Source: an uncultured Persicobacter sp.
Lineage (GTDB): Bacteria; Bacteroidota; Bacteroidia; Cytophagales; Cyclobacteriaceae
Assembly: GCA_947498325.1 (NCBI GenBank)
Contig: CANMKE010000045.1
Coordinates: forward strand, 1 to 34,460
Length of the DNA: 34,460 nt
Direction of reading: 5' to 3'
Below the pieces are notes generated by a model that worked only from the letters and a program-made list of their open reading frames with translations, searched no databases and was not told the DNA's origin. Numbering within the stretch: position 1 is the first letter of the stretch; every line of letters starts with the position of its first letter. Positions 10,800-31,585 of this stretch are shown here, piece after piece. A program made the translations under genes and the position numbers.

Positions 10800-10818
10800 A
10801 GTTCTGAATAGTAATAAA

Positions 10819-12150: not shown

Positions 12151-12306
12151 ATTAAAAAAATATATCTTGTTGAATGTTCTGATACTAAAAATGAGTAATA
12201 TCAGTATTGATGGCTGAACCATCCCCTGTACAGCAAAAATCTCCTCATAGTCCCACAGTCCTTTTACAATAGCATCATTGTCGATGCGATTTTGGTTTAT
12301 GAGCTG

Positions 12307-13359: not shown

Positions 13360-13369
13360 AGCTATATTA

Positions 13370-14563
13370 CTATTTATTTTTGTTGGCCTGTTCGATGGCG
13401 AACATCACTCCGCGAAGTTCAGCAAGCCCTCTTAAACGACCAATGCCCGAATACCCAGGATTGGTTTGCTTTGCTAAATCGTCCAACATCTTATGCCCGT
13501 GATCAGGACGCATGGGCATTCTGCTGAACTCATCATTACCTGACAAACGACGGGATTTTTCTGCCATTAATACATTCAGTAGCTCATACATATTCACATT
13601 ACCCTCGAGGTGGTTTGCCTCATAAAAGTTACCAAACTCATCGCGTTGAGTAGCACGCAAATGGACAAAATGAATGCGATCTGCAAATCGTTTAGCCATA
13701 CGAACAAGATCGTTATCCCCACGCACCCCATAACTGCCGGTACAGAAAGTAATGCCGTTACTTTTCGAAGGGACAGCCTCCAATAACCAGGCGGCATCTT
13801 CTTCAGTACTGACGACCCGAGGCAAGCCTAAAATTGGGTAAGGTGGATCATCAGGGTGAATGGCCAAAACCACACCCGCCGATTCGGCTACTGGTACAAT
13901 ATGACTGAGGAAGGTTTTCAGGTTCTTCCGCAACACCTCCGCGTCAATCTCTTTGTATTCATCCAATACAGCCTGAAACTGTTCCAGCGTATAACCTTCT
14001 TCAGCACCCGGAAGTCCAGCGATAATATTTTTCACCAATTCCGCACGTTTGCTTTCACTCATGGCATCAAAAACCTGAGCAGCCTTCTCTACTATTGCTG
14101 GCGAATAGGCATCTTCCGCTTTGGGGCGCTTTAAAATATGAATTTCAAAAGCGGCAAATTCTGCGACATCAAATCGAAGAGCCTCTGATCCATCTTCTAC
14201 CTTAAATGACAGGTCCGTTCGTGTCCAGTCCAGAACTGGCATGAAATTGTAACATACCGTATCAATACCACAGGTGGCAAGGTTTTGAATTGAGGTTTTA
14301 TAATTTTCGATATAAGTCTGAAAATCTCCTTTTGCCTTTTTGATATCCTCATGAACAGGAATGCTCTCTACCACCGACCAAGTAAGTCCGGCAGCTTCAA
14401 TCTCCTCCTTTCGCAATTGAATTTGCTCCACCGTCCAAATTTCACCATTTGGAATATGATGCAATGCGGTAACCACTCCTGTTGCCCCAGCCTGACGGAT
14501 ATCCGAAAGACTCACAGGGTCATTTGGGCCATACCAACGCCAAGTTTGCTCTAATCCTCTCAT
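13370..14563 (-). CDS. uxuA: Mannonate dehydratase (copy 1)
   Basis: 397 residues, the length of UxuA, which dehydrates D-mannonate to 2-keto-3-deoxy-D-gluconate using a divalent metal. The signatures are intact: [12 protein letters not shown] near the start, [11 protein letters not shown] at 33-43, [15 protein letters not shown] at 104-118, HPDDPP at 236-241, CTGS at 274-277, HLR at 301-303 and RPDHGH at 352-357. These include the His, Cys and Asp metal and catalytic positions. It lies 12 bp after uxuB and 10 bp before the LacI gene, so it is operonic. A second, diverged copy is encoded at 15921-17087. Confidence 0.97.
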
Positions 14564-14575
14564 TTTCTTATGATT

Positions 14576-15415
14576 TTAAACGCCACTGAAACAGTTATAC
14601 CCACCATCGACAGGAATGCACACTCCTGTAACAAAAGAAGCAATATCAGAACACAAATAAAGTGCCGTGCCCTGAATGTCATCCGGCGATCCAAATTTAC
14701 CCATTGGCGTACCATTGACAATTTTTTGCCCACGCTCGGTAAACGACCCATCCTGATTGGTTACCAAAAAGCGATTTTGGTCTGTGATGAAAAAGCCTGG
14801 AGCGAGGCTGTTAACGCGAACATTTTGAGGTGCAAGGTGCGTCGCAAGCCACTCGGTGAAATTATTAATTGCGGCTTTAGCTGCTGAATAGGCCGGGATT
14901 TTTGTCAATGGCTTGAAAGCATTCATAGAGGAAATATTCAACACTACACCCTGACGATCAGCACCGATCATGTCTTGCGCAAAGATCATCGTTGGCAGTA
15001 ATGTCCCCTTAAAATTCAGATCGAAGACAAAATCAAACCCTTTAACGTCCAAATCAAAAAACGTTCCTTCAAGTTCATCCTCTACCATTTGTTCCACTGC
15101 CGTGGTGGCTTTCGGATGATTTCCCCCTGCACCGTTCACCAAAATATCGATGCTCCCCAAGGCCTCATTGATGGTGCCTTTAGCTTCCACCAGCGAAGCA
15201 CGGTCCAAAACATTTGCTGAAACACCTAAGGCTTGAACTTGAAATTCACTCACCAGCTCTTCGGCCATCTTTTGTGCATTTTCTGCATTCAAATCTACAA
15301 TTGCTAAATTTGCCCCACAGGCGGCGAAAGCAGTACAGAGGCTCTTCCCGAGAACACCCGCTCCACCGGTAATGACGACCAGTTTTCCTTTTATATCTGA
15401 AAAAGTATTATTCAT
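14576..15415 (-). CDS. uxuB: SDR-type D-mannonate oxidoreductase (fructuronate reductase)
   Basis: 279 residues from the ATG at 15415; 13 more codons upstream are open but the promoter lies there. A classical short-chain dehydrogenase fold is visible: TGGAGVLG (16-23) for NAD(P), an acidic D41 at the end of beta-2, NGAG (94-97), Ser162/163, Tyr176 and Lys180 (YSAAK). The long insert after NGAGGNHP is typical of the Bacillus UxuB (YjmF)-type D-mannonate oxidoreductases, which are unrelated to the E. coli UxuB long-chain family. The role, reduction of fructuronate to mannonate, follows from its place before uxuA and with uxaC. It is the first gene of the operon, 37 bp from the promoter box. Confidence 0.85.
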   Translation of the reverse strand: MNNTFSDIKGKLVVITGGAGVLGKSLCTAFAACGANLAIVDLNAENAQKMAEELVSEFQVQALGVSANVLDRASLVEAKGTINEALGSIDILVNGAGGNHPKATTAVEQMVEDELEGTFFDLDVKGFDFVFDLNFKGTLLPTMIFAQDMIGADRQGVVLNISSMNAFKPLTKIPAYSAAKAAINNFTEWLATHLAPQNVRVNSLAPGFFITDQNRFLVTNQDGSFTERGQKIVNGTPMGKFGSPDDIQGTALYLCSDIASFVTGVCIPVDGGYNCFSGV

Positions 15416-15920
15416 TTTTTGAATTGACTTGTTAAAAAAATCATTGTATGACAAAGATAGAAACCAACACCTATACCACGCAAAAATTGATCATTCTCCA
15501 CGCCCCCTGACCATGCTGAAAAATATGGGTGATTTCTGAAATTATGCTGATATCATAAAATTTGGAGATAAAAATATGATTTATATAAAAATTGGGAACT
15601 CAATTTATCACTTTACTAACAGCTAAATAATAAAAAAAGACCTACTTAACCACTTTCATTCCAAATTCTTGCGTGCTTTTGCGTGCTTTTTACCTTATCA
15701 AGATGGTGTTATTTATTTCAGTGCCCATTAGTAATCCTATTTCCTCCTTTAAATCAGAATACTCACACGCGCTCTGATGTGTTGAGGCATTCTCCAAAAA
15801 GCAAATTCTTATTTCAAAATTTGACCTACGGCGTGAAAAGGCAGAAAGATGATGACCGGTACCAATGGCTGATTGCTAACCACCGATCATCATCGGTTGT
15901 GCTGAAAAATGCCGAACGAA
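15416..15920. other. Intergenic region, 505 bp, uxuB promoter side
   Basis: The region holds the uxuB promoter (15452-15483), a perfect tandem duplication of the 10-mer GCGTGCTTTT (15671-15690), and a small ACCGAT-CATC-ATCGGT hairpin (15882-15897) just after the stop of the second uxuA. An 88-codon plus-strand frame runs through the right half into uxuA but has no recognisable features. The gap suggests that the second uxuA pair and the uxuB operon are separate transcription units. Confidence 0.55.
15452..15483 (-). promoter_or_regulatory. Promoter of the uxuB-uxuA-lacI-MFS-uxaC operon
   Basis: Read on the minus strand, TTG (15483-15481) and TATCTTTG (15459-15452) are separated by 21 nt. This fits the Bacteroidota TTG / TAnnTTTG consensus. 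The -7 box ends 37 bp upstream of the uxuB ATG, leaving a short leader. No obvious palindrome overlaps it, so the LacI operator is not identified. Confidence 0.6.
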
Positions 15921-17087
15921 TCAATCCATCGAAGTTAAGGCAGCGATAATTCCTTTAAGTTCAGAAAGACCTTTTAATCGACCAATAGTGGAGTAACCAG
16001 GGCACAACATCTCTTTTGGCAAATCATCCAAAAGCTGATGCCCGTGATCAGGCCGATAGAATACCGATTGATTTTCTCCAACGGTCAGCAGTGTCTTTAC
16101 CAATGCCACCATGTCGGTACTGCCATCGAGGTGACCTCCTTCATGAAAACTTCTTCCGTCCTCCAATTGAACATTCCGCAGGTGCACAAAAGGAAAACGG
16201 TGCCCAAATTTTTGAACAATCTGCCGCAGGTCATTATTAGGATTGGCACCGAGAGAACCCGAGCAAAAAGTAATGCCATTATAGGGGCTATCTACCATTT
16301 TCAGGATGCACTCAAGGTCATGGGCATTAGAGACGATCCGTGGCAAACCAAATAAATTAAACGGTGGGTCGTCAGGGTGAATACACATTTTCACCCCCTC
16401 ACGAGCAGCGACGGGAATCACCTGTTGCAGGAAAAATTTCAGATTATCCTTGAGTTTATCCGCAGACACCTCTGCATATTTTGCCAATTCTTTAAGGAAA
16501 GCCTCCGGCGTAAAAACTTCTGTCGTTCCCGGAAGTCCAGCCAAAATACTTTCCTGCAAGGCTTGTCGTTCATCAGCTGAAAGTGTTTTCAGGTACTCTT
16601 CCGCCTGCGCTAAAAGTTGTGGTGAATATTCCGTAGCAGCACCTTCGCGCTGAAGCATAAAAACATCGAATGCTACAAATGCTTTAAAATCAAAACGCAG
16701 GGTTTCCGCACCACCCATCAGGCGGTATTTAAGGTCTGTACGAGTCCAGTCGAGCACCGGCATAAAATTATAACACAGGACCTTAATCCCACAGGTGGCC
16801 AAATTACGAATGGTCTGTTGATAATTTTCGATATACTTGTTCGCTTGGGGTCCACCAAGTTTGATTTCCTCGTGAATATTCACACTTTCGACCACATCCC
16901 AGGAGAGCAGCCCATCGTCCCCACTAATCTGTGCCTGTCGTTTTTGAATTTCAGCAATACTCCAAACCTCCCCAACCGGGATATGATGTAGCGCACTCAC
17001 TATAGATCTGACACCGACTTGTCGGAGATCAGAGATGGAGACAGGATCAGCATCACCGAACCATCTCCAACTTGGTAAAAGTTTCAT
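15921..17087 (-). CDS. uxuA: Mannonate dehydratase (copy 2)
   Basis: 388 residues, a full-length UxuA paralogue of the protein encoded at 13370-14563. All catalytic segments are kept: ALHHIPVGEVW (32-42), [15 protein letters not shown] (105-119), HPDDPP (237-242), CSGS (275-278; copy 1 has CTGS), HLR (302-304) and RPDHGH (345-350). The proteins differ widely in the central helical part (about 120-230), so the duplication is old or the copy was acquired separately. The gene starts 16 bp after a secreted AGE-family protein gene, suggesting it serves the sugar released by that system. It may prefer a related aldonate, but nothing visible shows that. Confidence 0.95.
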   Translation of the reverse strand: MKLLPSWRWFGDADPVSISDLRQVGVRSIVSALHHIPVGEVWSIAEIQKRQAQISGDDGLLSWDVVESVNIHEEIKLGGPQANKYIENYQQTIRNLATCGIKVLCYNFMPVLDWTRTDLKYRLMGGAETLRFDFKAFVAFDVFMLQREGAATEYSPQLLAQAEEYLKTLSADERQALQESILAGLPGTTEVFTPEAFLKELAKYAEVSADKLKDNLKFFLQQVIPVAAREGVKMCIHPDDPPFNLFGLPRIVSNAHDLECILKMVDSPYNGITFCSGSLGANPNNDLRQIVQKFGHRFPFVHLRNVQLEDGRSFHEGGHLDGSTDMVALVKTLLTVGENQSVFYRPDHGHQLLDDLPKEMLCPGYSTIGRLKGLSELKGIIAALTSMD

Positions 17088-20540: not shown

Positions 20541-20574
20541 AAAAAAGGCTGTAGCAATCATTGCGCTACAGCCT
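20541..20574 (-). terminator. Strong terminator after eda
   Basis: On the minus strand, a 10-bp perfect stem AGGCTGTAGC / GCTACAGCCT (20574-20565 with 20555-20546) is followed by seven T. It lies about 85 bp past the eda stop and closes the GntR-to-eda gene set. Confidence 0.85.
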
Positions 20575-20658
20575 CTACTGATATTAGATGAAGTTGTTGA
20601 TGCTCTCCAGCTGCTTAGTCGGCCACAAACTTGGAAAGCGGTATATTTTTTACAGCCA

Positions 20659-21294
20659 TTAAGCGGTTACTGCTGCGATCGACTGTTCATTCGCCTCACG
20701 GACATTGAAGGTGATTTGGTCGAAATCACCTGTTGCAATTAACGGTTTTGTCGCTAACCACGAACCACCCACAGCCACCACATTTGGTGCCCCGAGGTAG
20801 TCGTTCATGTTTTTCAGACTCACCCCACCCATGGGAATAAATTGCACCCCAGTGTGTCCGTAAGGACCCGCAAGAGCTTTCAGCATCCCGATGCCACCTG
20901 CTTGCGTTGCAGGGAACAATTTCTGCACCTTACAGCCCAGCTCCAGGGCAAGCTCCACTTCCGAGGGACTCATTACGCCAGGAATAAAAGGTAAGCCGAT
21001 CGCTTTTGCTTCTTTAACCACTTCAGGATTGAAACCCGGTGCCAATGCAAAAGATGCACCTGCGGCCTTGGCCTGATGCAGCTGTTCTTTGGTCAGGATT
21101 GTTCCCGCACCAATGTGCATCTGTGGCACTTCCTTTCGAATCAGGGCGATACATTCAGCGGCCTCCTCGGTTCTGAAGGGGATTTCCATCAGTGCTAACC
21201 CACCTGCAAGAATGGCTTTTGCGGTCGCTACTGCCTGCTCTTTTTTGGGGATGGTTACCGCAGGGAGGACTTTTATTTTATCAAAAATTTCCAT
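20659..21294 (-). CDS. eda: KDPG/KHG aldolase
   Basis: 211 residues, as for E. coli Eda (213). It cleaves 2-keto-3-deoxy-6-phosphogluconate to pyruvate and glyceraldehyde-3-phosphate, the last step of the Entner-Doudoroff and hexuronate routes. Catalytic elements are present: Glu37 in MEIPFRTE, GAGTIL (62-67), APGF (85-88), IPGVMSP (104-110) and the Schiff-base lysine Lys125 in VQKLFPAT. GPYGHTGVQFIPMGGV contains the phosphate-binding Gly-Gly. It is the last gene of its set, 10 bp after the creatininase-family gene, which suggests co-translation. It would also serve the KDG made by the uxuA locus. Confidence 0.96.
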   Translation of the reverse strand: MEIFDKIKVLPAVTIPKKEQAVATAKAILAGGLALMEIPFRTEEAAECIALIRKEVPQMHIGAGTILTKEQLHQAKAAGASFALAPGFNPEVVKEAKAIGLPFIPGVMSPSEVELALELGCKVQKLFPATQAGGIGMLKALAGPYGHTGVQFIPMGGVSLKNMNDYLGAPNVVAVGGSWLATKPLIATGDFDQITFNVREANEQSIAAVTA

Positions 21295-21304
21295 GATGAT
21301 GAAC

Positions 21305-21994
21305 TTAAATACTTCCGAATGCGGCCTTCACTTTCTGCGTCAGCACTTCCACGGCCTGATCACGAACTTTCTCACCATTGGCGAAATCAGCTTCACTTGG
21401 CTTGCCATTGATACCACCCGAGGCAGGATCGAGTTCGTAACGTGAACGGATTTTGTACCACGGTTTCTCTACCTTGAAATCCTTTACGCGATCCATATAC
21501 ACTGCTGTTCCGCAAGCTACCGCCACTTCCGTTTCGCCTTTATCGGCATGGTGGATACCGCTGATGCCACAATCCGACCACCAGTTCCAGCAAACGCCTT
21601 TGAAGTCAGGGTATTGTTCCCAAACCTTATAGAAAGCCAATTCACATGGTGCTTTATTGGCACCATGACCGGTAATAAAAATGACTTTTTTGAATCCTTG
21701 CTGACAAAGGTTTTTGGCAAGATCGACGATTACCTGCGAAAACACCTCTACGGACAGCCCAAGACTGCCAGGGTACTCGCGCATTTCATCGGAAAAACCA
21801 TAGGGTAAAGTCGGAACGATAATCGCCCCTGTATTTTTTGCCACCGCTCTACTGAAATAAGTAGCGGAATCGATATCGACACTTACAGGAAGGTGTGGCC
21901 CATGTGCTTCCACCAATCCAACAGGAACAAGCACAGGAATATTACGATCAAGCTCGTTGATCTCGTCTGATGTTAAGTTAATCCACTCTTTCAT
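21305..21994 (-). CDS. Creatininase-family metal-dependent hydrolase
   Basis: 229 residues from the ATG at 21994 (MKEWINLTSD); 19 more open codons upstream are not needed. The creatininase fold is shown by PVGLVEAHGPHLPVSVD (Glu29, His31, Asp40 as metal ligands), YPGSLGLS, ITGHGAN (His110) and the GETE segment (about 153-156). Family members hydrolyse cyclic amides and other small rings. One Thermotoga member (IolN) is reported to open a diketo-inositol ring on the way to KDG, which fits the position here directly before eda. The natural substrate is not decided by the sequence; true creatinine degradation is unlikely because no creatinase or transporter is nearby. A 9-nt-period repeat lies 110 bp upstream. 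Confidence 0.82.
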   Translation of the reverse strand: MKEWINLTSDEINELDRNIPVLVPVGLVEAHGPHLPVSVDIDSATYFSRAVAKNTGAIIVPTLPYGFSDEMREYPGSLGLSVEVFSQVIVDLAKNLCQQGFKKVIFITGHGANKAPCELAFYKVWEQYPDFKGVCWNWWSDCGISGIHHADKGETEVAVACGTAVYMDRVKDFKVEKPWYKIRSRYELDPASGGINGKPSEADFANGEKVRDQAVEVLTQKVKAAFGSI

Positions 21995-22103
21995 AATGGT
22001 ATTATTTCGAGGTTTAAAATTGGGGTTGAATGATGCTGTATCGCACTGCATAAAAAATAACGGTATAGGTCAGGCGCTCGGGTCTAACCCCACCAAAATT
22101 GGG

Positions 22104-22139
22104 ATCTCATGAAAATCCCCTACTCAAGGAAATCATGGT
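22104..22139. repeat. 9-nt-period repeat, copy upstream of the creatininase gene
   Basis: Read on the minus strand as ACCATGATT, TCCTTGAGT, AGGGGATTT, TCATGAGAT, in phase with the copies at 2811 and 24583 but in the opposite orientation. It lies in the 177-bp gap between the ROK and creatininase genes. Confidence 0.6.
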
Positions 22140-22171
22140 CTATATCACCCCATTAATATTATTGCGAATGC

Positions 22172-23149
22172 TTAAACCGCCGCCGCCTGTTTTTGCAAAT
22201 ACGCCTGCAGGTAGGCTACAGCCCCCACTACACCTGCATATTCCTGATGTTTAGCCACCACAATATCGATGGTGCCAGAGGGAAAACGGAAAATCCGTTC
22301 ACTAACCTTTGTGCGCAGCTTATCAATAAAAAGATCAGCTGCGAGGGTTGCCCCACCGCTCAGAATAATGCGTTGCGGTTCGTAGGCATGTACCGTATTG
22401 ATCAGCATCACGGCCACATTTTCTATCCATTGCTCGAAAACATCAATACACAACTGATCCCCCGCACGAACGGCATCTACTACCGCTTTAAAATCGATGC
22501 TATGTGGGTTGCTGAAATATTGATCTTCCAGGATAGAAGGCACTCCGCGCTGAATCGTCTCTCTTGCCATTAGGGCGAGGGCGGTTGCAGAGCAAAGGGT
22601 TTCACAGGTCCCATAATTTCCTGTCAGGCATAACGACTGAGAGGATTGCTGCATCACCATGTGCCCAATCTGGGTACCAAACTGAAAGTGTGGATCTTCA
22701 TCAATGTTGCCGTTGATCATGACCCCCGAGCCAATGCCTGTCCCGATGGTCAGCACCACCGCCCAATCAACATCTTCCGCATATCCCCCATGTTTGGCCG
22801 CATACATTGCCAATCTGCCGTCATTATTACAAATCACCGGAATGTTGAACTTCTCGCGAAGCATGGGCACGATGGGGAAACCTTCAAGGTTCTTGAATTT
22901 GCCCGGAAGGAGCACCACCCCTTTTTCGGGATCCACCCCACCGCTAAGACTCAAACCAATACCTGTCGGTCGGCCTTTCTCTGCAATTTGCTTTTCGGTG
23001 AATTCTACAATGGTATCAAAAAGTTGCTGTGCGCCCTCATTTGCACGGCTCGGAACAGCGAAGGTCTCCTTCAGCATTCCGTGGGCATCAACGATCCCCA
23101 CTTTCAGCCTTGTTCCCCCTACATCATAGCCAATAGCGTAATCTTCCAT
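22172..23149 (-). CDS. ROK-family sugar kinase
   Basis: 325 residues. The ATP-binding motif DVGGTRLKVG starts at residue 9, the catalytic Asp110 sits in CNNDGRLA, and GTGIGSG (136-142) is the second phosphate motif. His163 in QIGHM and the cysteine cluster follow, but the ROK zinc motif CxCGxxGCxE reads CLTGNYGTCE (174-183): two cysteine positions are threonine and one Cys is shifted by one. Full length and the SGGATLAAD segment near the C-terminus argue for an active kinase; there is no N-terminal helix-turn-helix, so it is not a ROK repressor. It phosphorylates a sugar, probably at O6. Nothing else in the window is a KDG kinase, so it may make KDPG for Eda. It lies 35 bp after the FAD oxidoreductase gene. 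Confidence 0.88.
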   Translation of the reverse strand: MEDYAIGYDVGGTRLKVGIVDAHGMLKETFAVPSRANEGAQQLFDTIVEFTEKQIAEKGRPTGIGLSLSGGVDPEKGVVLLPGKFKNLEGFPIVPMLREKFNIPVICNNDGRLAMYAAKHGGYAEDVDWAVVLTIGTGIGSGVMINGNIDEDPHFQFGTQIGHMVMQQSSQSLCLTGNYGTCETLCSATALALMARETIQRGVPSILEDQYFSNPHSIDFKAVVDAVRAGDQLCIDVFEQWIENVAVMLINTVHAYEPQRIILSGGATLAADLFIDKLRTKVSERIFRFPSGTIDIVVAKHQEYAGVVGAVAYLQAYLQKQAAAV

Positions 23150-23184
23150 GACTTTGTGCTTTAGATAAAAAAATGAAACTTATT

Positions 23185-24507
23185 TTAACGCAAGATACCG
23201 CCGTTTTTCTCCAAAGTATCCTGAAGATCAGCAACGTTGATATTGCCCGGCTGTGTATCTGTTTTCAATGCCAAAACCGCCGCATTACCAACAGCCTCAC
23301 CCATCACCATACACTGCGCCATCGAACGCACGCTACTATGCGCTACATGCGATGCCGAGAAACAACGACCTGCCACCAATAGGTTTTCAATTTTCTGAGG
23401 AACCAAGGTACGGAAAGGGATACCTACCGTTTTGCCGTCAGGCAAGTACTGCCATCTTACGCCTTCACCATCGTGGTGGTCTTCCATAGGCGCCCCACAC
23501 AAACCAATCTGGTCGTCGAATTTTTTTGCTGACAAAACATCTTCCGAAGTCAGGCGATACTGCCCGTGAATACGACGGGTCTCCCGTACACCAATCTGCA
23601 TCCCGTAAGTTGACAATTCGGCTTTTTCGTATCCTGGCACATAATCACGCAAGAAACGAATGTACTCAATGGCTTGCAAACGTCCTTCGATCTCGGCATG
23701 GCTCAAGAATTCCGGATCCGCCGCATTGATCGTTACTTCTCCTTCTTTTCTGAAAGAAGTCAAACGCGTCATGATCGTTGCGGTCATATGACTCACTGGC
23801 GTGATATGATCACTCCCCTCTTTACGAGGCAAATTGTATTTTCCTGATGCTGCGGCTTCTTCCATCAAAGCGTTGATTTCCTTTTTGGCAACCGTTTTAC
23901 GCTTCTCACAATCCACATTCACCATCTTGAAGGTGGTGGTCAATGTTTGGGCTGGATCCACTGCACCGGCCAATTCATAAGGCGCTTCAGCCTGGTGACA
24001 GATATCTGCATCACCTGAAGCATCAATAATTTGCTTGGCTTCATAATATTTCAAACCATCCTTGGTTGCCACAACCAAACCAATGATTTTATCACCCTTC
24101 TTGACTACATCGGTAACGTGTGCATTCAACAAAATTGAACAGCCCGCCTGCATCAATAATTTCTCCCAAACCACTTTCAAGTACTCTGGGTGGTAAGTAA
24201 CGCCCGTCCCGGCACCAAAAGTATTCGGGCGCTCAAAGCTCGCATTGTATTCTCCCAAACCTTTGACTACATCGTCAGCTATACCACCAACCACTTTAAT
24301 CGACTGGCTTCCTGGGGTGTAATATCCATAAAAAGTATCGAGCACAGCCGTAGATGTTCCACCGATAAATGGCAAACGCTCGATGATCAATGTTTTTGCT
24401 CCTGCTCTGCTGGCAGAAATTGCTGCTGGCGAACCCGCAGATCCAGAACCTACAACGATCACATCGAAGCAATCGATCAAGGGTAATGATTTATGATAAT
24501 TATGCAT
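23185..24507 (-). CDS. FAD-dependent oxidoreductase (FAD_oxidored family)
   Basis: 440 residues from the ATG at 24507 (MHNYHKSLPL). A longer frame to 24657 would run through the repeat region and is rejected. The dinucleotide motif VIVVGSGSAGSPAAISASRAG (around 16-36) and Glu43 mark the FAD Rossmann fold. The GGTSTAVLD segment and the C-terminal NLLVAGRCFSASHVAHSS are the family's second FAD motifs. There is no signal peptide, so the enzyme is cytoplasmic. Members are often found in sugar and sugar-acid gene sets in Bacteroidota, but few are characterised. It probably oxidises an alcohol or amine group of the pathway substrate. It is 35 bp upstream of the ROK kinase and 320 bp after the SDR, with a 9-nt-period repeat in that gap. 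Confidence 0.82.
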   Translation of the reverse strand: MHNYHKSLPLIDCFDVIVVGSGSAGSPAAISASRAGAKTLIIERLPFIGGTSTAVLDTFYGYYTPGSQSIKVVGGIADDVVKGLGEYNASFERPNTFGAGTGVTYHPEYLKVVWEKLLMQAGCSILLNAHVTDVVKKGDKIIGLVVATKDGLKYYEAKQIIDASGDADICHQAEAPYELAGAVDPAQTLTTTFKMVNVDCEKRKTVAKKEINALMEEAAASGKYNLPRKEGSDHITPVSHMTATIMTRLTSFRKEGEVTINAADPEFLSHAEIEGRLQAIEYIRFLRDYVPGYEKAELSTYGMQIGVRETRRIHGQYRLTSEDVLSAKKFDDQIGLCGAPMEDHHDGEGVRWQYLPDGKTVGIPFRTLVPQKIENLLVAGRCFSASHVAHSSVRSMAQCMVMGEAVGNAAVLALKTDTQPGNINVADLQDTLEKNGGILR

Positions 24508-24582
24508 GGTAGATAATTTTATTATTTCAAGATTAAAAAAAGAGCCACTACTTAGTGGTTTAGTGATGTAGGGAGGTTTTAG

Positions 24583-24618
24583 ACCATGATCACCTTGACT
24601 GAAAGGATTACCATGATT
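24583..24618. repeat. 9-nt-period repeat, copy upstream of the FAD oxidoreductase gene
   Basis: Four consecutive units: ACCATGATC, ACCTTGACT, GAAAGGATT, ACCATGATT. They match the units at 2811-2846 at most positions. The element starts 76 bp upstream of the FAD gene's ATG. Confidence 0.7.
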
Positions 24619-24704
24619 GTTGATTTGTAAGTGACAGCTTAGGAAATCTGTGGACAAATAGGTACCCTTTGTATTTTATATTCGGTTCTTACTTGTCGGA
24701 ATCC

Positions 24705-24807
24705 GTCCAAGCGAGACGCTTGAACTAAAGGTTACACATTACTTCCCCCCCTCTGATAATATTGTGTGATGCTTAATATCCATAGTCCAAACGAGCTGCC
24801 TGAACTA
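24705..24807. repeat. Pair of 23-bp hairpin repeats
   Basis: Copies lie at 24705-24727 and 24785-24807, starting GTCCAAGCGAG and GTCCAAACGAG and both ending TTGAACTA/CTGAACTA. The first contains CAAGCG-AGA-CGCTTG. They differ at five positions or fewer by eye, and look like a dispersed REP-type repeat duplicated locally, 80 bp apart. Confidence 0.6.
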
Positions 24808-24827
24808 TGAATAGCATATATAAAAAC

Positions 24828-25610
24828 TTAGCTCACACTCCAACCTCCGTCCACTTTCAGGACTTCGCCAGTGATCACTTTACTCTCTTGGCTCAATAAA
24901 AATACGGAGGTTTTTGCCACATCTACGGCATCCATCACGCCGCCAACTAATGGTTGTTTTTCGGCCATGAAGTTTACAATCTCCTCGTTTTCAGAAGCTC
25001 TCGCACTCATGCGTGTCAACGCCAAGCCCGGACAGATTGCATTCACACGGATCTTGTCAGCAGCATATTTTGAGGCCATCGACTGGCTCATACTGATGAT
25101 CGCTCCTTTGGCGGCAGCATAGGCAATGGTCGAAAAGAATTTCGGCTCTGGCGACATGCCCAAAATACTGGACATATTCAGGATCGTTCCTCTGAGACCA
25201 TTTTCATCCACCTCTTGCGCCAACATCACGTTCACCACCTCACGGCACAAACGGTACTGAGTGGTGACGTTGTTGGACATGGTTGTCGCCCATCCTTCTT
25301 CCGTGCACTCATGAACAGGACCATCACCAAAACGGCGACCACTGATCCCTGCCACATTGTACAGCCCGTCAATACGACCGTGCTTTTCTTTGCAGGCTTT
25401 CACCAAACGCACTGCCAATTCAGGATCGGTCAAATCGCCCACCAAAAAGTCGGCTTCACCGCCCAGCTCCAAAAGGATTTCTTTCAGCTCCTGACAACGT
25501 GCTTCATTTCTTCCGCAGAAAAAAACTTTCGCTCCCTGCTGTACAGCGAGTTTCATGGTTTCGGCAGCTATTCCCGAAGCACCTGTAATAATGAATATTT
25601 TATTTTTCAT
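24828..25610 (-). CDS. Short-chain dehydrogenase/reductase
   Basis: 260 residues, classical SDR. The motif TGASGIA (9-15) replaces the usual TGxxxGIG end glycine with alanine. NVAG (85-88), Ser147/148, Tyr164 and Lys168 (YAAAK) form the active site, and VDGGWSVS closes the chain. It should oxidise or reduce a polyol or sugar-acid hydroxyl with NAD(P); the substrate is unknown. The start overlaps the 3' end of the SIS-domain gene by 11 bp, so the two are translationally coupled. It is not closely similar to the uxuB SDR in the other locus, which has a long insert absent here. Confidence 0.88.
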   Translation of the reverse strand: MKNKIFIITGASGIAAETMKLAVQQGAKVFFCGRNEARCQELKEILLELGGEADFLVGDLTDPELAVRLVKACKEKHGRIDGLYNVAGISGRRFGDGPVHECTEEGWATTMSNNVTTQYRLCREVVNVMLAQEVDENGLRGTILNMSSILGMSPEPKFFSTIAYAAAKGAIISMSQSMASKYAADKIRVNAICPGLALTRMSARASENEEIVNFMAEKQPLVGGVMDAVDVAKTSVFLLSQESKVITGEVLKVDGGWSVS

Positions 25611-26457
25611 GCCCCGCTGGAGTTAATGCTTCTTCTACTGGCTTCACTGCCTCAGGGTTATACATGGCGCGTGCATATCGTTTGCGTTGGTCTGCAGTCC
25701 ACTCATCGTAGTTATCAGCGGTATTGTTGATGTGCATATTACGCAACACATGGTGGTGATACCCACGCTGATCAAGGGTACGGATCGTCATTTCGTTCAA
25801 AGACTGAATCACAGACAAGGCGCCAATAGATGAAAGTGGACATACCTGATACTGATCCAAATCGCCATCTACGGTAACCGACAAATCACCATAAGGCATC
25901 GAGTTGTCAATGAAGATGGCGTTTTCTGCTTGATCCGTTACATCACTCAAATTCATACCCGTACTGTGCTTAGGCTTGGCACCTTTGGACTGAACCTCAG
26001 AGGCAATGGCAATCAATGGATTGTTAGGATATCTTTTATTGAAAGTCAAAGCCATATCCACTGCTGCAGGGGTTGTTCCCGTAGCGGTGATTACCAACAT
26101 CACATCTTTTGGTCCTACTTCATATTCTTTCAGAATATTTTCGGCAATACCTTCGTAGCGCTCAATACCTTGATTAACACGGATACCGTTCACCCCAACA
26201 ACGTCGGTGAAAGAAGTCAATCCTGTCTGCAAAATACCGTGAAAACCAGTCAAGGCACCCATACGGATACACACTTCTTCGACAGAAATACGCGAGTGGC
26301 CATTGGCATACACATACACCACACCACCATCCATAATGGCATCAGCAAATTTACCGGCAACGGCCTGCAATTTTTCCTGTTGTGCTAACAAACCGTTTTT
26401 GATCTTGTCCAATTGCATTGGAAAGGTCAGTGCTACTTGTTCGGATTTTTGACTCAT
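25600..26457 (-). CDS. SIS-domain sugar-phosphate-binding protein (UPF0309-like)
   Basis: 285 residues. A single SIS fold spans about 35-215: VVYVYANGHSRISVEEVCIRMG, then VMLVITATGTTPAAVDMAL (phosphosugar loop) and PLIAIASEVQSKG, plus AKPKHSTGMNLSDVTD. These match the UPF0309 group of phosphosugar-binding proteins; the family handles ketose/aldose phosphates or acts as a sugar isomerase. The C-terminal 70 residues (YHHHVLRNMHINNTADNYDEW...) are an extension I do not recognise. It is 28 bp after the GntR gene and overlaps the SDR gene, so it is the first enzyme gene of the set. Whether it isomerises a phosphosugar or only senses one is open. Confidence 0.82.
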   Translation of the reverse strand: MSQKSEQVALTFPMQLDKIKNGLLAQQEKLQAVAGKFADAIMDGGVVYVYANGHSRISVEEVCIRMGALTGFHGILQTGLTSFTDVVGVNGIRVNQGIERYEGIAENILKEYEVGPKDVMLVITATGTTPAAVDMALTFNKRYPNNPLIAIASEVQSKGAKPKHSTGMNLSDVTDQAENAIFIDNSMPYGDLSVTVDGDLDQYQVCPLSSIGALSVIQSLNEMTIRTLDQRGYHHHVLRNMHINNTADNYDEWTADQRKRYARAMYNPEAVKPVEEALTPAGHEK

Positions 26458-26485
26458 ATCTTTAAAAAAATTGTCCTACTGCCTT

Positions 26486-27226
26486 TTATGCGAAATCCAG
26501 TTCGGCTACAGAAGGGTTGATTTGTTTTGATTTATATCTATATTCAGTTGCGGGCGCAATGATTTTCGAGTATTCGAAAGGTCTTTTATCTAACAGATAA
26601 GATACCCGCTTGATGACTAAAACAATGTCGGTTTTCAATTCAAAAAGTGACCGCTCTTCTTCGGTTGCGGCACGTGCATAGACTTCTTCTTCTGCGATTG
26701 CAGGCACATGTCCGTATTTTTGCTGAATCCATTGGTATAAAGATTCCTGATTCAGGTTTTCAGCTTTAAGATCAGGAACTAAATCGAAGGGCAGCTCATT
26801 ATGCATTAAGCAAATGGCTTTACCATCAATTCCCCTGACACGGTTTACGCTAATTGTGTAACCTCTTGATTTAATTCTCAAAAGATTGGCCACCTTAGCG
26901 CTGGGTTTGGTTTTCTCCACTTCCACCAATAGGGTTTCTGGCTTTTTCCCTATGGAGGAAATACTGTCGGTCCAGCTTGAAACCCCAACGTGGTTATCCA
27001 TCAATGGCTTTTCTTTCACGAAAGTTCCCTTACCGGCGATTGTTTCCAAAATCCCCTCATTCACCAAATGTGAAATGGCCCGCTTCACCGTAATCAGGCT
27101 GGTATCCGTAGCTTTGGCAATTGCCGTTTGCGTGGGAATAAGCTGCCCTGCCCGATACTCCTGTTCTATCAGTTCGGTAAGGTAAGTGAGCACTTTAATA
27201 TATAAGGGTTGTTTCGTCTTTGCCAT
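26486..27226 (-). CDS. GntR-family regulator with UTRA effector domain (HutC/FarR type)
   Basis: 246 residues. The N-terminal winged helix-turn-helix (about 8-72) carries QLIPTQTAIAKATDTSLITVKRAISHLVNEGILETIAGKGTFV, the GntR signature. Residues about 90-240 form a UTRA domain (MHNELPFDLVPDL, QESLYQWIQQKYG, LVIKRVSYLLDKRPFEYSKI). HutC-type members are usually repressors released by a sugar phosphate or pathway intermediate. It is the first gene of the SIS-SDR-FAD-ROK-creatininase-eda set and directly follows a promoter that overlaps a perfect 14-bp palindrome, which suggests autorepression. Confidence 0.92.
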   Translation of the reverse strand: MAKTKQPLYIKVLTYLTELIEQEYRAGQLIPTQTAIAKATDTSLITVKRAISHLVNEGILETIAGKGTFVKEKPLMDNHVGVSSWTDSISSIGKKPETLLVEVEKTKPSAKVANLLRIKSRGYTISVNRVRGIDGKAICLMHNELPFDLVPDLKAENLNQESLYQWIQQKYGHVPAIAEEEVYARAATEEERSLFELKTDIVLVIKRVSYLLDKRPFEYSKIIAPATEYRYKSKQINPSVAELDFA

Positions 27227-27245
27227 GGTAAAAAATAACTATGCA

Positions 27246-27276
27246 CAAATATTATAATATTATACTATTTATGCAA
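27246..27276 (-). promoter_or_regulatory. Promoter and candidate operator of the GntR gene set
   Basis: On the minus strand, TTG (27276-27274) is followed after 20 nt by AATATTTG (27253-27246), one base off the Bacteroidota -7 box TAnnTTTG. A perfect 14-bp palindrome AATATTATAATATT (27248-27261) lies between and over the -7 box, 22 bp from the start codon. The palindrome is AT-rich, so chance is possible. Confidence 0.5.
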
Positions 27277-27465
27277 ATCCTGCGTGTGAGAATGTCACAA
27301 AATTTCAGATCACTCACCATTAAGCACCGACCAAAACCACTCAAAGACCTCACAATCAGCACGTACAATTATATTTTATTTTTTCAGATGCTGGCATTAC
27401 CTCAGAAAACACCATTAAAATTACTTATTGCCTATTAGTTCAAATTGCGGACATCCTCCCAAAAG

Positions 27466-27503
27466 CAAAAAATGCCCGCCAAATCAGGCGGGCATTTCAT
27501 TTT
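27466..27503 (-). terminator. Terminator of the propeller gene (probably bidirectional)
   Basis: An 11-bp perfect stem AAATGCCCGCC / GGCGGGCATTT (27470-27480 and 27487-27497) has a 6-nt loop. A T run follows on the plus strand and, on the minus strand, TTTTTTGCTTTT. It lies about 100 bp past the stop of the gene ending at 27597. Confidence 0.85.
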
Positions 27504-27596: not shown

Positions 27597-30500
27597 CTAC
27601 CTTCTGATCAGGCGGCTGAAAGATTGTTGTGCAGGCAAATAGACCATATAAATACCTGTGGGTAAAGTATGAATATCACAGCGACCATCGCCCTGATCAA
27701 ATTCAATGGACTGCTTTAAGATTAACCTTCCTGCAGCATCATAAATGTGGATTTCATGCCCTACTTCAGGATTCAACCCTTCAAAATACAAAAGGCCATC
27801 GTTAGGATTGGGGAAACATGTCCATTCTTCGGATGGGAAATCAGTATGGAGCACCCGCGTATTTTCCCGATCGAAATAGAAAGTCCCCACCCTTGCAATA
27901 TAATTGGCAATCACGGCCTGATCGGTCGCATATAATGTCGTCCATTGCTGCTGATCATTAGATCCATAACAGACAAAGCTGCTGACTCCTCGACGGGAGG
28001 CGTTGGATTGAATACGAATTCCATTGGGGTGAATTTCATTGCCTTCGCCGAGATCCACAGTAACGGCTACAGGAAAGTCGGTGCCCACAGCCCAATCGGT
28101 ATTTTTACCATCGAACATCTTCCAGCTGCCGGCCGTAACAGCGGTGGCTCTGTCCTGATCATTGACCGTCAGTTTTGGCGAGGGATAGGCCGCAGATTCC
28201 ACCAGCCATTCCAACTCCTGAAGGGTTACGGGCAAATCATCAATATCATCCCTGATTTCCAGCTTCAAATACCTGAAAGGAACCAAAAGCGGTAAAACTT
28301 CGACGGTCAGCTGTTGCTCAAATCCCCCATCATCCGTTTTTAGCGTGATGACGGCTGAGCCTGCTTTCTGAGCCGACAAAACGCCCACGGAATTAACACT
28401 GATGATATCGGGCTGACTGCTGCTGAAATGCACCTGCTTATTGGAGGCATCAACTGGCGCCACCTCATATTGCAATGTCGCCTGTTCGCCTTCAGTAAGG
28501 GAAGTCACGGCCCCTGTAACCTCAAGGCCCGTTACTGCAATAGTCAGAGGCTCAAAGCGTGCTGTAAAAACTTTTTGTTCATAATCTTCCACACTAATAT
28601 CGCTGCGGTCATACAAGACGGTCCATTCGTTTAAATCATTGGAACCTTCACAGATCAAATCGGTAATTGCATTGGAAACGGAATTTACGTTCACCGTCAG
28701 GCTGTCTGGTGTAATGGCAGTTCCGTTGCCCAAATCGAGGGTAATACTTGCCGGGTACTGATTGATAATATCCCAGGTTGGCGATTTGCCGTCATAAGCA
28801 CGCCAGGCAAGGTCCGCTGCAACGGTTGCCCATACCTGATCATTATTGGTCAGGTAAGTAGTCGGAAAACCCGCACCTTTGGCATACCATCTCAGTTGAT
28901 GGATTTTCACTGAAGCGGTTCCCGCCCTGGCCGTCATTCTTAAAAAACGAAACGATGTATTGCTTGTCGGCGGAAGGACCACAGGTGGATCCGCAGGTGC
29001 ATCAACAGGTTTACGCCATAAGCCCATCCCCGAGGAGGCGATATAAAAGTAAGGCACGCCATCGCTCTCAAAAACAGTCGCCTTTCTTGCACGAGGGTAT
29101 TTTAATCGGTTTTCTCCCTCGCCAGAAAAATCCTCCCAGCTTACTTCCCCTCCTCCAATTCGGCCACGAAGGGCTGCATAGCCATGCCGGCGTTCGCCAG
29201 TGATGGTCACAAAAATCTGTTGGCCAAAGCCCGCAATTGCACCAATTGAAACACCATCTCCTGCCACATACCATTCCTCTTTGTTGGTCGGGCGAACTTG
29301 CTTGATTTGTGTGCTGTTTAAAACGGAATGCCAACTGCTCCCCTGATCAGAAGACAGGTATAGGTTGCCATTTTGATCTCCTATACAAAGGTACGTAAGG
29401 CTTTGATCTGCCCATACTGTTAGTTCTGCTTTGGCACCCATACCAACATTGGAAATATCATTGATCTTGGTCCACACGGGCGCCGCTGTTTCGAGTTGTT
29501 CAATTCGCCACAGACCATTACTTTGTAATGCATACAAACAATCGCTGTTCTGCGGATCAACGAATACTTCATTGACTGAATTAGACTGCCCTGCCACCTG
29601 CTGCCAATCGGCTGTTGAAGTACCATCGATAAGCCCCACAATATCGGAATGTTTAAAAATACCTTTTTCTGTGGCGAGATAGACTTTGTTGTAGTCTGCT
29701 TTATCATAATCAATCGCATAAATACGCGGACCATTTCCGGTGTTTTGCGTCAGACCATTTAAACCCGGCGAATTTCCTCCGATTAATTTCATCCCGCTGC
29801 TCAGGTCGTGGGTCTGCGGATTGATTTTAGCCCCATGCACCTTACCAATGGAATAACTAAATCCGCCACCGTAATTACTCACGCCACCCGTGATAACTAC
29901 CGGCGATTCCTCGAATGGAATTACGGCCATTGCCCCACAATCATTTACTCCACCAGGCAAGTGAATGCGTTTCCAGGTCGCCCCGTTATCACTGCTGTAC
30001 ACAAAACCATTGTCCGCCTGCCCCTGCGCTATAAACTGACCAATACCAGCCATCGACCAATTAAAGGTAGAGGCAATTCCGCGGTTGTTATATCGCCCAT
30101 TGGATTGTTTTTCTGTCCAGCGCGGCTGCCAATCCGTTAAAAAGTTTCCTTGCGTATTCCAGGTGTAAAAGCCTTCATCACTCGTTACCCATATCGCTCG
30201 CTCCCAACTTGCAGGAGTATAACCATAATGGCCTGCCTTTGGCGAGGTTTCTTTCCAGCCATAATCGTAGTCCCATTCCGTACCACTCACCTTATTGAAG
30301 ATTTTTTGTTGCTCAATAATGGTGGGGGATTGTTGTTCCCAGCTGATGATCGTTTCCCACAAACCATTATGATCCGAGGATACCCGACAGCCCAACAGCA
30401 AATGATGGGTATTGCCCGTATCGCGAGGGTCAATCCTCGGTCGCCACCAATCTGTTTCCACCGCCAAAGCCGCAGACAGATCTTCCCATGCTACCGCCTC

Positions 30501-31328
30501 TGTGCTCCTGCCATACAATTTATACTGACCCGCTACCGACGTTTCATAAACTGCATAAACGTACTGCCCATTCGGACTGACGGTAACACCGCGGGAACGC
30601 CCTGTACCCGTAGGCGCAGGTAACTTTTCCCAGCTGAAATTACTGCCGGTTCTGATGCCTTTATATATTCCTGCTTCTGCGGAAAGGTATATCGCCTTTG
30701 TAACGGGATCAACGGAAATATCATAAGTGTTTTTCTCAATCACTCCTGTATCATAATAGGTGAGTGCCCACGATTTTCCGTGATCCACAGAAAAAGCCAT
30801 TGCTCCTGCTCCGGTGGTCGGGTGTGTGTTGGCTTCCTTGAGCACTGATGCCCATTTGTTCATCCAGCCATTTCCCGCATAGATCACCTGGGGATCGTCG
30901 GGTGCAATAGCAATAGCTGCCACGGGCCCTTTCACCCCATCGTTGTCCGCATCCCACGGATCAAAAAATGTCTGATATTGCCATGTAAGCCCACCGTCGT
31001 CAGAAATTTCCAGCCCGAAAAGTCCGCCATTATAAATCCGCTGCGGATTGCCTTCTTCCACTACGGTAACAAACTGCATCAGGTGGTGATGTTCGTGTAC
31101 ACCTGTGGGGCGCCAACTAAGGCCATTGTCCTGCGAAATACTGAGGCCTTCCATATCGGAGTTAAAAAACACCTTGCCTTCCGTATTGGGGTCAAAATAT
31201 AGGCCCTGTACCTGTCCCCCTCCTCCAGGATGCAATAATTCCCAGTGTTGTGCCCAAAGCTGAGCGTGAAAAAATGGCACCAGCATACATGCCAGCGCAA
31301 CTTTGAGAAAGTAAAACTTAATCCTCAT
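27597..31328 (-). CDS. Secreted Asp-box beta-propeller protein (GH74/sialidase-like) with discoidin-like, BIG2-like and T9SS domains
   Basis: 1,243 residues from the ATG at 31328 (MRIKFYFLKVALA); the frame stays open to 31502 but the signal peptide (1 to about 27) fixes this start. Residues 30-785 hold several Asp-box motifs (SQDNGLSW, SDDGGLTW, SVDHGKSW, SSDNGATW, SSDQGSSW), the mark of GH74 xyloglucanases, sialidases and related propellers. Then follow a discoidin-like domain (791-927), a BIG2-like immunoglobulin domain (928-1017), a second discoidin-like domain (1018-1162) and a T9SS type A tail (1163-1243, FPNPNDGLLYF ... GIYMVYL). It is thus exported through type IX secretion and probably binds a polysaccharide. 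Whether it is a hydrolase is unclear: I did not identify the two catalytic acids of GH74. It is a single gene with its own terminator. Confidence 0.82.
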   Translation of the reverse strand: MRIKFYFLKVALACMLVPFFHAQLWAQHWELLHPGGGGQVQGLYFDPNTEGKVFFNSDMEGLSISQDNGLSWRPTGVHEHHHLMQFVTVVEEGNPQRIYNGGLFGLEISDDGGLTWQYQTFFDPWDADNDGVKGPVAAIAIAPDDPQVIYAGNGWMNKWASVLKEANTHPTTGAGAMAFSVDHGKSWALTYYDTGVIEKNTYDISVDPVTKAIYLSAEAGIYKGIRTGSNFSWEKLPAPTGTGRSRGVTVSPNGQYVYAVYETSVAGQYKLYGRSTEAVAWEDLSAALAVETDWWRPRIDPRDTGNTHHLLLGCRVSSDHNGLWETIISWEQQSPTIIEQQKIFNKVSGTEWDYDYGWKETSPKAGHYGYTPASWERAIWVTSDEGFYTWNTQGNFLTDWQPRWTEKQSNGRYNNRGIASTFNWSMAGIGQFIAQGQADNGFVYSSDNGATWKRIHLPGGVNDCGAMAVIPFEESPVVITGGVSNYGGGFSYSIGKVHGAKINPQTHDLSSGMKLIGGNSPGLNGLTQNTGNGPRIYAIDYDKADYNKVYLATEKGIFKHSDIVGLIDGTSTADWQQVAGQSNSVNEVFVDPQNSDCLYALQSNGLWRIEQLETAAPVWTKINDISNVGMGAKAELTVWADQSLTYLCIGDQNGNLYLSSDQGSSWHSVLNSTQIKQVRPTNKEEWYVAGDGVSIGAIAGFGQQIFVTITGERRHGYAALRGRIGGGEVSWEDFSGEGENRLKYPRARKATVFESDGVPYFYIASSGMGLWRKPVDAPADPPVVLPPTSNTSFRFLRMTARAGTASVKIHQLRWYAKGAGFPTTYLTNNDQVWATVAADLAWRAYDGKSPTWDIINQYPASITLDLGNGTAITPDSLTVNVNSVSNAITDLICEGSNDLNEWTVLYDRSDISVEDYEQKVFTARFEPLTIAVTGLEVTGAVTSLTEGEQATLQYEVAPVDASNKQVHFSSSQPDIISVNSVGVLSAQKAGSAVITLKTDDGGFEQQLTVEVLPLLVPFRYLKLEIRDDIDDLPVTLQELEWLVESAAYPSPKLTVNDQDRATAVTAGSWKMFDGKNTDWAVGTDFPVAVTVDLGEGNEIHPNGIRIQSNASRRGVSSFVCYGSNDQQQWTTLYATDQAVIANYIARVGTFYFDRENTRVLHTDFPSEEWTCFPNPNDGLLYFEGLNPEVGHEIHIYDAAGRLILKQSIEFDQGDGRCDIHTLPTGIYMVYLPAQQSFSRLIRR

Positions 31329-31350
31329 AGTGGTTCTGTTAATGGTTATT

Positions 31351-31376
31351 TTGGGTTCTTTGCCGGCAAAGCCCAA
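31351..31376. promoter_or_regulatory. Strong hairpin in the leader of the propeller gene
   Basis: A perfect 14-bp palindrome CTTTGCCGGCAAAG is extended by TTGGG on the left and CCCAA on the right. It lies 23-48 bp upstream of the ATG and could be an operator or a leader RNA hairpin. Confidence 0.4.
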
Positions 31377-31585
31377 AGACTGAATTACCGACTTAGGGAA
31401 AAAATCAAACAGAACGATATAAAGGCTACAAACCCGCTGAAGAAACATTTTAGTTGGGAAATCAACAGAAAATAAATGCTGGAAAGCCTGTTTCGTCCCC
31501 AAAACATCCCTTCCAAAAAAGGTATAATCAATTTTCGGATTCGAAAAGCCCCCCTATCCTCACAGCCATAAGATTGATACTTTAG

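Follow-up and report, generated by a model that had tools for sequence, protein, structure and literature searches.

By what reactions might seven adjoining genes, the last of them encoding 2-keto-3-deoxy-6-phosphogluconate (KDPG) aldolase, bring a carbohydrate to KDPG? We asked this of a 34,460-nucleotide stretch of DNA from an uncultured Persicobacter sp. (contig CANMKE010000045.1, positions 1–34,460; hereafter 'the window'), in which the genes lie on the minus strand and encode, in order of transcription, a GntR/UTRA regulator, a SIS-domain protein, a short-chain dehydrogenase/reductase (SDR), a flavin adenine dinucleotide (FAD) flavoprotein, a ROK sugar kinase, a creatininase-family hydrolase and Eda. 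The comparisons below indicate that these genes form a conserved unit with a probable operator of its own, very probably ending at KDPG, and likely a conserved hexose-to-KDPG operon. Our reading of it as an inducible route in which loss of water from the sugar phosphate precedes its oxidation is tentative, and we give it somewhat less than an even chance. An earlier note made from the DNA letters (the original prediction) had proposed that a substrate is oxidized twice, hydrolysed, phosphorylated and then cleaved; the conserved unit ending at KDPG has held, but that order of reactions has not, as it lacks the dehydration that is needed.

The seven co-directional genes and the families first named for them were borne out: open reading frames lie at the coordinates given below, and every product scored above the curated Pfam cut-off of its family. 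NCBIfam cut-offs were reached by Eda (TIGR01182, 237.3 versus 156.05) and the SIS protein (NF002805, 150.8 versus 135), and, among the models listed, by none of the kinase, SDR, flavoprotein, regulator and creatininase-family protein. The plasmid pPP2 of Persicobacter psychrovividus is near-identical to the window and carries the same seven genes, with corresponding annotations and proteins 99–100% identical.

The gene set recurs in six phyla

A profile built from the SIS proteins of the window and of Deinococcus aetherius, run against 84,980 species genomes, returned 24 loci; with the Deinococcus plasmid this made 25 loci other than the window's. Four of these, cut by contig ends (L027, L028, L033 and L048), were excluded from the counts, and the remaining 21 were examined over at most 10 kb on each side (15 kb for Deinococcus). 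SIS protein, flavoprotein, sugar kinase and hydrolase were encoded together in all 21, accompanied by an SDR in 18 (it was missing in L044, L046 and L047) and, within the span examined, by Eda in 11, from five phyla (L034 is cut after the hydrolase). Carriers belong to the Bacteroidota (Zobellia, Flavivirga, Chitinophaga and a Flavobacteriaceae bacterium), Verrucomicrobiota, Planctomycetota, Acidobacteriota, Chloroflexota and Deinococcota.

The window's exact gene order was found in three of the 21 loci (L036, L038 and L040) and the same order minus Eda in two Zobellia; these are close kin of one another and not independent. In Chitinophaga, a sugar porter and a divergent AraC gene come before the pair formed by the creatininase-family gene and eda, which lies about 3 kb upstream. 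The original prediction had proposed a search for this gene order in other Bacteroidota, and the set was indeed found again there and in other phyla; its recurrence shows that the genes are not neighbours by chance alone.

Among 59 nearest-relative genomes, the window's own included, 14 had some SIS match, the best outside the window's gene being 35% identical, and the one genome of the same genus (G001) had no SIS match. Across 395 genomes of the phylum, scored for the best few candidates in each, members of the SIS clade (at E ≤ 1e-50) and of the creatininase clade (at E ≤ 1e-40) were both present in the same two, the window's own and G238, and the flavoprotein (E ≤ 1e-150) was present in ten. 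The set is rare and patchy, and this rarity, together with the spread over phyla, suggests horizontal transfer. A PF01081 aldolase was encoded somewhere in all 23 carrier genomes searched (that of L048 being left out), against 8 of 14 controls. The window's own genome also holds a paralogous cluster (L062; contig C20, 6654–17711) with the order GntR–SDR–ROK–SIS–FAD, followed by a phosphotriesterase (PTE)-family gene, where the window has the creatininase-family one, and then GH3 and GH94 genes.

The SIS protein is a candidate dehydratase

KDPG is a 2-keto-3-deoxy acid, and a hexose must lose water to reach it. No 6-phosphogluconate dehydratase (Edd) was found among the seven genes by Pfam scan, the whole genome not having been searched, and we know of no family among the seven other than SIS with a dehydratase precedent. 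The SIS protein (25600–26457, minus strand; 285 amino acids; PF13580, PRK02947/UPF0309 family) is therefore the candidate for this step, and we propose that it is a sugar-6-phosphate 2,3-dehydratase.

Two solved structures matched it, 3cvj and NagS (SCO4393), the latter distantly (55.9 bits). NagS dehydrates N-acetylglucosamine 6-phosphate (GlcNAc-6P) to 6P-chromogen I, a hex-2-enofuranose; it also acts on N-acetylmannosamine 6-phosphate (ManNAc-6P), and is bound by 6-phosphogluconate as a competitive inhibitor (PMC12680351). The residues essential in NagS, H53, R64, E94 and D179, correspond to H54, R65, E99 and D191 of the window protein, and the phosphate-contacting S54, S119 and S121 to S55, T124 and T126; NagS S221 aligns with a proline and was left unused, the remaining named positions being in agreement. 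The tetrad is kept in all 20 aligned family members, the window's among them, which are a chosen subset of homologues. The same source gives NagS orthologues as sharing 58.7% or more identity and as restricted to Streptomycetaceae (PMC12680351); judged by that identity and by retention of S91 and N228, the window protein falls outside them.

A proposed dehydration-first route to KDPG

In the route that we favour, the ROK kinase (FGGY in some relatives) would phosphorylate a hexose at O6. The SIS protein, in the manner of NagS, would then open the ring, take the C2 proton and expel O3, giving a 3-deoxy-hexosone 6-phosphate or hex-2-enofuranose 6-phosphate. The flavoprotein, alone or together with the SDR, would oxidize the furanose at C1 to a 1,4-lactone, and the creatininase-family enzyme, or a PTE-family enzyme in other lineages, would hydrolyse the phosphorylated lactone to KDPG. 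Eda would cleave this to pyruvate and glyceraldehyde 3-phosphate. The stoichiometry balances with a single oxidation and a single hydrolysis: hexose − H2O − 2H + H2O equals 2-keto-3-deoxygluconate. An initial SIS dehydration would yield a furanose whose C1 oxidation gives a phosphorylated 1,4-lactone, the type of substrate suggested for the PTE, and phosphorylation is more likely to come early than late. Because dehydration would erase C2 and C3, any hexose of D-erythro configuration at C4 and C5 (gluco, manno, allo, altro, or 2- or 3-substituted) could serve.

Two hydrolase families alternate in the operon

The creatininase-family gene (21305–21994, minus strand, with the start as in the pPP2 annotation) encodes a 229-amino-acid PF02633 hydrolase (151 bits; gathering threshold 31.3), the proposed lactonase. 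Residues E34, H36, D45 and H120, which we take to be the metal ligands of creatininase, correspond to E30, H32, D41 and H111 here (numbered from window 21308–21997, one above the protein numbering) and are invariant in the 13 rows aligned. The original prediction had depended on this protein not being a true creatininase. We rejected that identity: E122 of creatininase is replaced by an alanine (A113) invariant in the same 13 rows, and the creatininase model TIGR04448 scored 82.3 bits versus 235.

The other identity considered was that of IolN, which opens an oxidized ring in Thermotoga and had been named as the nearest precedent. A cyclitol might be oxidized twice and the diketone opened by an IolN-like enzyme, the acid then being phosphorylated and cleaved; two oxidoreductases and a creatininase-family hydrolase are at hand for this, and IolN does belong to the same broad family, as a match to its model NF041098 attests. 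That match scored 44.8 bits where the cut-off is 245, so orthology to IolN was rejected, and such a route would leave SIS and UTRA unexplained and still lack a reduction and a dehydration. Relatives, which were not searched for inositol genes, carry sugar porters and a GH31 enzyme. We find a cyclitol substrate scarcely credible and the analogy with IolN weak.

A creatininase-family hydrolase was present in 13 of the 21 loci and a PTE-family hydrolase in the other eight, never both and never neither (PTE membership was assigned by Pfam for the Deinococcus protein and by BLAST for the rest). Adding the window and the distant clusters L022, L023 and L062 gives 14 creatininase-family and 11 PTE loci. 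On a tree of SIS and flavoprotein sequences (26 rows, one unlabelled), the fewest hydrolase changes was two, and 4% of bootstrap trees allowed one. For the Deinococcus PTE, the nearest NCBIfam model was the phospho-furanose lactonase NF045706 (195 bits) and the nearest Protein Data Bank (PDB) entries were 3msr/3ovg and 3pnz. The lactonase work on 3msr/3ovg reportedly found hydrolysis of phosphorylated furanolactones; it is touched on in PMC10971088.

Two observations concern PTE genes more widely. L065 (7024–11727) and L066 (2622–7720) of Firmicutes encode GntR, PTE, a creatininase-family protein and a KDPG-type aldolase, one with an ascorbate-type phosphotransferase system and one with xylulokinase; the aldolase frame of the Listeria locus is broken in its record. 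These sets may possibly be another uncharacterized route to KDPG. In several loci a MetE-like protein (PF01717, checked in L025 and L046) is encoded beside the PTE (L025 12187–13218, L044 13171, L046 13196–14260, L047 13130 and L074 5220–6227), and perhaps demethylates an O-methyl sugar.

Oxidoreductases, sugar kinase and the order of reactions

The FAD gene (23185–24507, minus strand, start as in the pPP2 annotation) encodes a 440-amino-acid FAD_oxidored flavoprotein (PF12831, 374.5 bits), which we propose is the C1, lactone-forming dehydrogenase. The SDR gene (24828–25610, minus strand) encodes a classical 260-amino-acid oxidoreductase (PF13561/PF00106) with YxxxK and TGxxxGxx-type motifs. 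FAD and PTE genes also stand side by side in L073, a locus that showed neither a SIS nor a kinase match in 18 kb, as expected if they act at consecutive steps.

The sugar kinase (22172–23149, minus strand; 325 amino acids; PF00480, 155.1 bits) is of the ROK family in 17 of the 21 loci and is replaced by an FGGY kinase in four. The window's ROK protein keeps the NND motif, has QxGH where ExGH is expected and retains just the first cysteine of the usual zinc motif; we assume for ExGH, the catalytic aspartate and the zinc-cysteine motif the roles that they have in ROK kinases. QxGH and the loss of most zinc-binding cysteines in this ROK clade suggest an unusual sugar specificity.

These enzymes could also be ordered as in the Entner–Doudoroff pathway, with FAD/SDR oxidation to a lactone, creatininase or PTE hydrolysis to an aldonate, phosphorylation by ROK or FGGY, and SIS dehydration of the 6-phosphoaldonate to KDPG for Eda. 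The FGGY family includes gluconokinase, and the Deinococcus FGGY protein does match the gluconokinase model TIGR01314 (188 bits; cut-off 648.55); the FAD–PTE pairing in L073 would suit this order too. However, removal of an alpha-proton without a metal is generally harder from a carboxylate than from an aldehyde, and the single PTE scanned has its nearest matches among hydrolases of phosphorylated lactones, which places phosphorylation ahead of lactone opening. Binding of 6-phosphogluconate to NagS can be counted on this side, but the text consulted presents it as an inhibitor without reporting activity on it (PMC12680351). We regard oxidation first as unlikely, and dehydration before oxidation as the preferred order.

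Eda and the neighbouring hexuronate genes

Eda (20659–21294, minus strand; 211 amino acids; PF01081, 207.5 bits) raises a different possibility, that there is no separate KDPG route. The window holds a hexuronate catabolism set at 9384–17087 (uxaC, an MFS transporter, a regulator with a substrate-binding domain, two uxuA mannonate dehydratase genes and a mannonate oxidoreductase SDR), 3.6 kb downstream of the operon, and the pPP2 annotation shows no kdgK or second eda beside it. The SIS protein might then be an isomerase in a rare-hexose pathway, with Eda and ROK completing the glucuronate pathway nearby; the MFS proteins of L036, L038 and L039 are 28–32% identical to the window's hexuronate transporter. 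Against this, Eda accompanies SIS, FAD and hydrolase genes in the 11 loci noted above, and no UxuA or UxaC match was found at 1e-8 in those stretches. The window's own genome, moreover, encodes a second PF01081 aldolase (L064, contig C8) beside two PfkB-like kinases (identified by eye), so the hexuronate genes need not depend on the operon's Eda. We rejected on these two grounds the idea that the operon merely supplies Eda to the glucuronate genes, and consider this explanation as a whole highly unlikely.

Transporters, glycosidases and the possible substrate

All four MFS proteins of relatives that were scanned belong to Sugar_tr. The Flavivirga porter matches XylE best (413 bits; cut-off 608) and exceeds the cut-off of the sugar-porter subfamily, one relative has an SSF symporter, and Chitinophaga has SusC/SusD-like genes (identified by eye). 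Six relatives encode a GH31 protein, with 6jr6 as the best PDB match, and several neighbouring candidate glycosidases of relatives had no Pfam match. The transporters and the GH31- and GH36-like neighbours lean towards a neutral, alpha-linked hexose, which we do not name.

The GH31 protein, of 1,119–1,136 amino acids, has a long extension at its C terminus and accompanies the operon in Flavobacteriaceae and one planctomycete (L038 15283–18690; also L030, L031, L035, L036 and L040). A carbohydrate-enzyme-like family of about 700 amino acids also accompanies the operon (L038 18729–20816, L031 2076–4181, L040 15334–17484 and L043 19450); the L043 member is GH36-like with a sub-threshold Melibiase match and the L038 member had no PDB match; this is possibly an undescribed glycosidase.

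The NagS precedent suggests an amino sugar instead. The SIS protein could dehydrate a phosphorylated N-acetylhexosamine to an enamide of the 6P-chromogen-I type, and after C1 oxidation the creatininase-family enzyme, acting as an amidohydrolase of the kind found in that family, could remove the amide nitrogen as it opens the lactone to KDPG. NagS turns over both GlcNAc-6P and ManNAc-6P (PMC12680351), and a Martelella locus joins nagA, ROK and GntR genes to a SIS gene of the PRK02947/UPF0309 family. Yet the operon has no deacetylase or hexosaminidase gene, the positions of S91 and N228 differ here, relatives carry sugar-porter MFS genes and a GH31 enzyme, and distant NagS homologues failed on GlcNAc-6P. 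An amino-sugar substrate is thus, in our view, decidedly unlikely.

Observations that weigh against the dehydration-first route

Several of our results count against the route that we prefer, beginning with its central step. The NagS tetrad is a mark of the SIS family and so speaks for the family's chemistry, not for dehydration as such, and the substrate-contacting S91 and N228 of NagS are Q96 and H242 in the window protein, invariant in 21 clade members. The NagS report describes the phosphate-contacting serines as non-crucial and three distant homologues (26–36% identity) as having no or negligible activity on GlcNAc-6P (PMC12680351); the inactivity fits a different substrate without proving one.

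The later steps are also affected. Two oxidoreductases are encoded in 18 of the 21 loci and the scheme requires one oxidation. The Deinococcus PTE, the single PTE scanned, lies far below the NF045706 equivalog cut-off of 630 bits, and the starred branches of the tree alone force no more than one hydrolase switch. PTE and creatininase-family genes adjoin each other, with a KDPG-type aldolase, in a Listeria record and on a plasmid of Alicyclobacillus. Since two hydrolases stand side by side there, they need not share one step in every lineage; the creatininase-family proteins of these Firmicutes are more distant (27% and 33% identical to the window's). The Deinococcus FGGY kinase is XylB-like (368.2 bits; cut-off 380.25), and we know of no FGGY kinase that acts on aldoses. 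One 12.5-kb contig (L074) carries GntR, SIS, SDR, FAD, MetE-like and PTE genes and no kinase was seen on it, and ten of the 21 relatives, one of them cut after the hydrolase, have no Eda in the stretch.

The regulator, its palindrome and the operon boundaries

The gntR gene (26486–27226, minus strand) encodes a 246-amino-acid protein (GntR 43.4 bits, UTRA 114.8 bits), and 15 bp upstream of it lies an imperfect 34-bp palindrome (27242–27275; TGCAYAAATA-N14-TATTTRTGCA). The palindrome recurs in five of the 25 other loci (no mismatches in L038, one in L036 and L040, two in L031 and three in L030), although the GntR proteins of these carriers are just 50–52% identical to the window's. In L036 and L038 the site lies immediately before gntR, and in L040 it is upstream of a GH31 gene that precedes gntR; in L030 and L031 it stands about 0.8 kb upstream of gntR, ahead of a 218-amino-acid open reading frame. 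The other 20 relatives had no site at up to three mismatches, and a four-mismatch match in L032 is chance-like: first-order Markov sequences of seven loci, five for each, gave one three-mismatch and three four-mismatch sites. In the window's own genome (5.66 Mb) there is a single site at up to three mismatches. Given this recurrence near gntR and the single genomic site, the palindrome is probably the operator at which the operon's GntR acts, and the operon is probably autoregulated. The repressor would bind the palindrome and be released by a phosphorylated intermediate, the UTRA ligand being presumably a pathway phosphosugar.

Of the bounding elements in the original prediction, the palindrome and the strong terminator are present, the latter as an intrinsic-terminator-like hairpin of 13 pairs and a T run downstream of eda (20544–20576, minus strand). 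The promoter found no support, as the promoter-like match at 27397–27368 belongs to a class occurring no more often than expected by chance (18 sites versus 13.7 ± 3.7 in shuffles). A second terminator-like hairpin (27469–27498, both strands) separates the operon from the gene upstream (27597–31502), whose 1,301-amino-acid product has BNR, F5/8 type C and Big_2 matches and a Por_Secre_tail sorting domain.

Comparison with known systems

None of the papers listed by our searches of openly licensed literature describes this gene set, in keeping with the original claim that no known pathway uses it, and these searches turned up no described role for the PRK02947 SIS branch. It is possible, though we doubt it more than we believe it, that the operon is an undescribed dehydration-first route, with NagS-type chemistry used productively, PF12831 oxidation and a creatininase or PTE lactonase, that bypasses 6-phosphogluconate and its dehydratase and has spread horizontally over at least six phyla. 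If so, central metabolism would gain a new entry, branches of the PF12831 flavoprotein, creatininase and PRK02947 SIS families would gain functions, and a well-defined series of intermediates could be predicted and tested. With the palindrome recurring and two non-orthologous replacements at hand (creatininase/PTE and ROK/FGGY), the order of the reactions can be tested one enzyme at a time.

The Thermotoga maritima IolN inositol route shares with the operon a creatininase-family hydrolase acting on an oxidized carbohydrate and is not known to have a counterpart of the SIS, PF12831 and ROK proteins. The TM0411–TM0416 operon of T. maritima is mentioned in PMC5931981. The L-glucose/L-galactose genes lguABCDEF of Luteolibacter, also from outside the Proteobacteria, have oxidations, a kinase and a KDPG aldolase in common with the operon, but use D-altronate dehydratase, tagaturonate reductase and 2-keto-3-deoxygluconate kinase; the accessible text makes no mention of creatininase and names no SIS, PF12831 or PTE protein (PMC12632266), and we rejected this route on that comparison. 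The PTE-family phosphorylated-furanolactone lactonases (3msr/3ovg, 3pnz; NF045706) are the best matches, at a low score, of the Deinococcus PTE that replaces the creatininase-family enzyme.

NagS belongs to the same SIS family and shares its essential tetrad and the Ser/Thr phosphate contacts with the window protein, but the similarity is distant and two substrate contacts differ. It is presented as a toxicity and signalling enzyme of Streptomyces, outside any KDPG route (PMC12680351); here the same chemistry, so far a toxicity step, would be put to productive use. With the Entner–Doudoroff pathway and its variants the operon shares the reaction classes (kinase, oxidation, lactone hydrolysis, dehydration and Eda) and the cleavage of KDPG, but it has no gene of the edd, zwf or pgl type among its seven, and the dehydration that we assign to the SIS protein would probably come ahead of oxidation.

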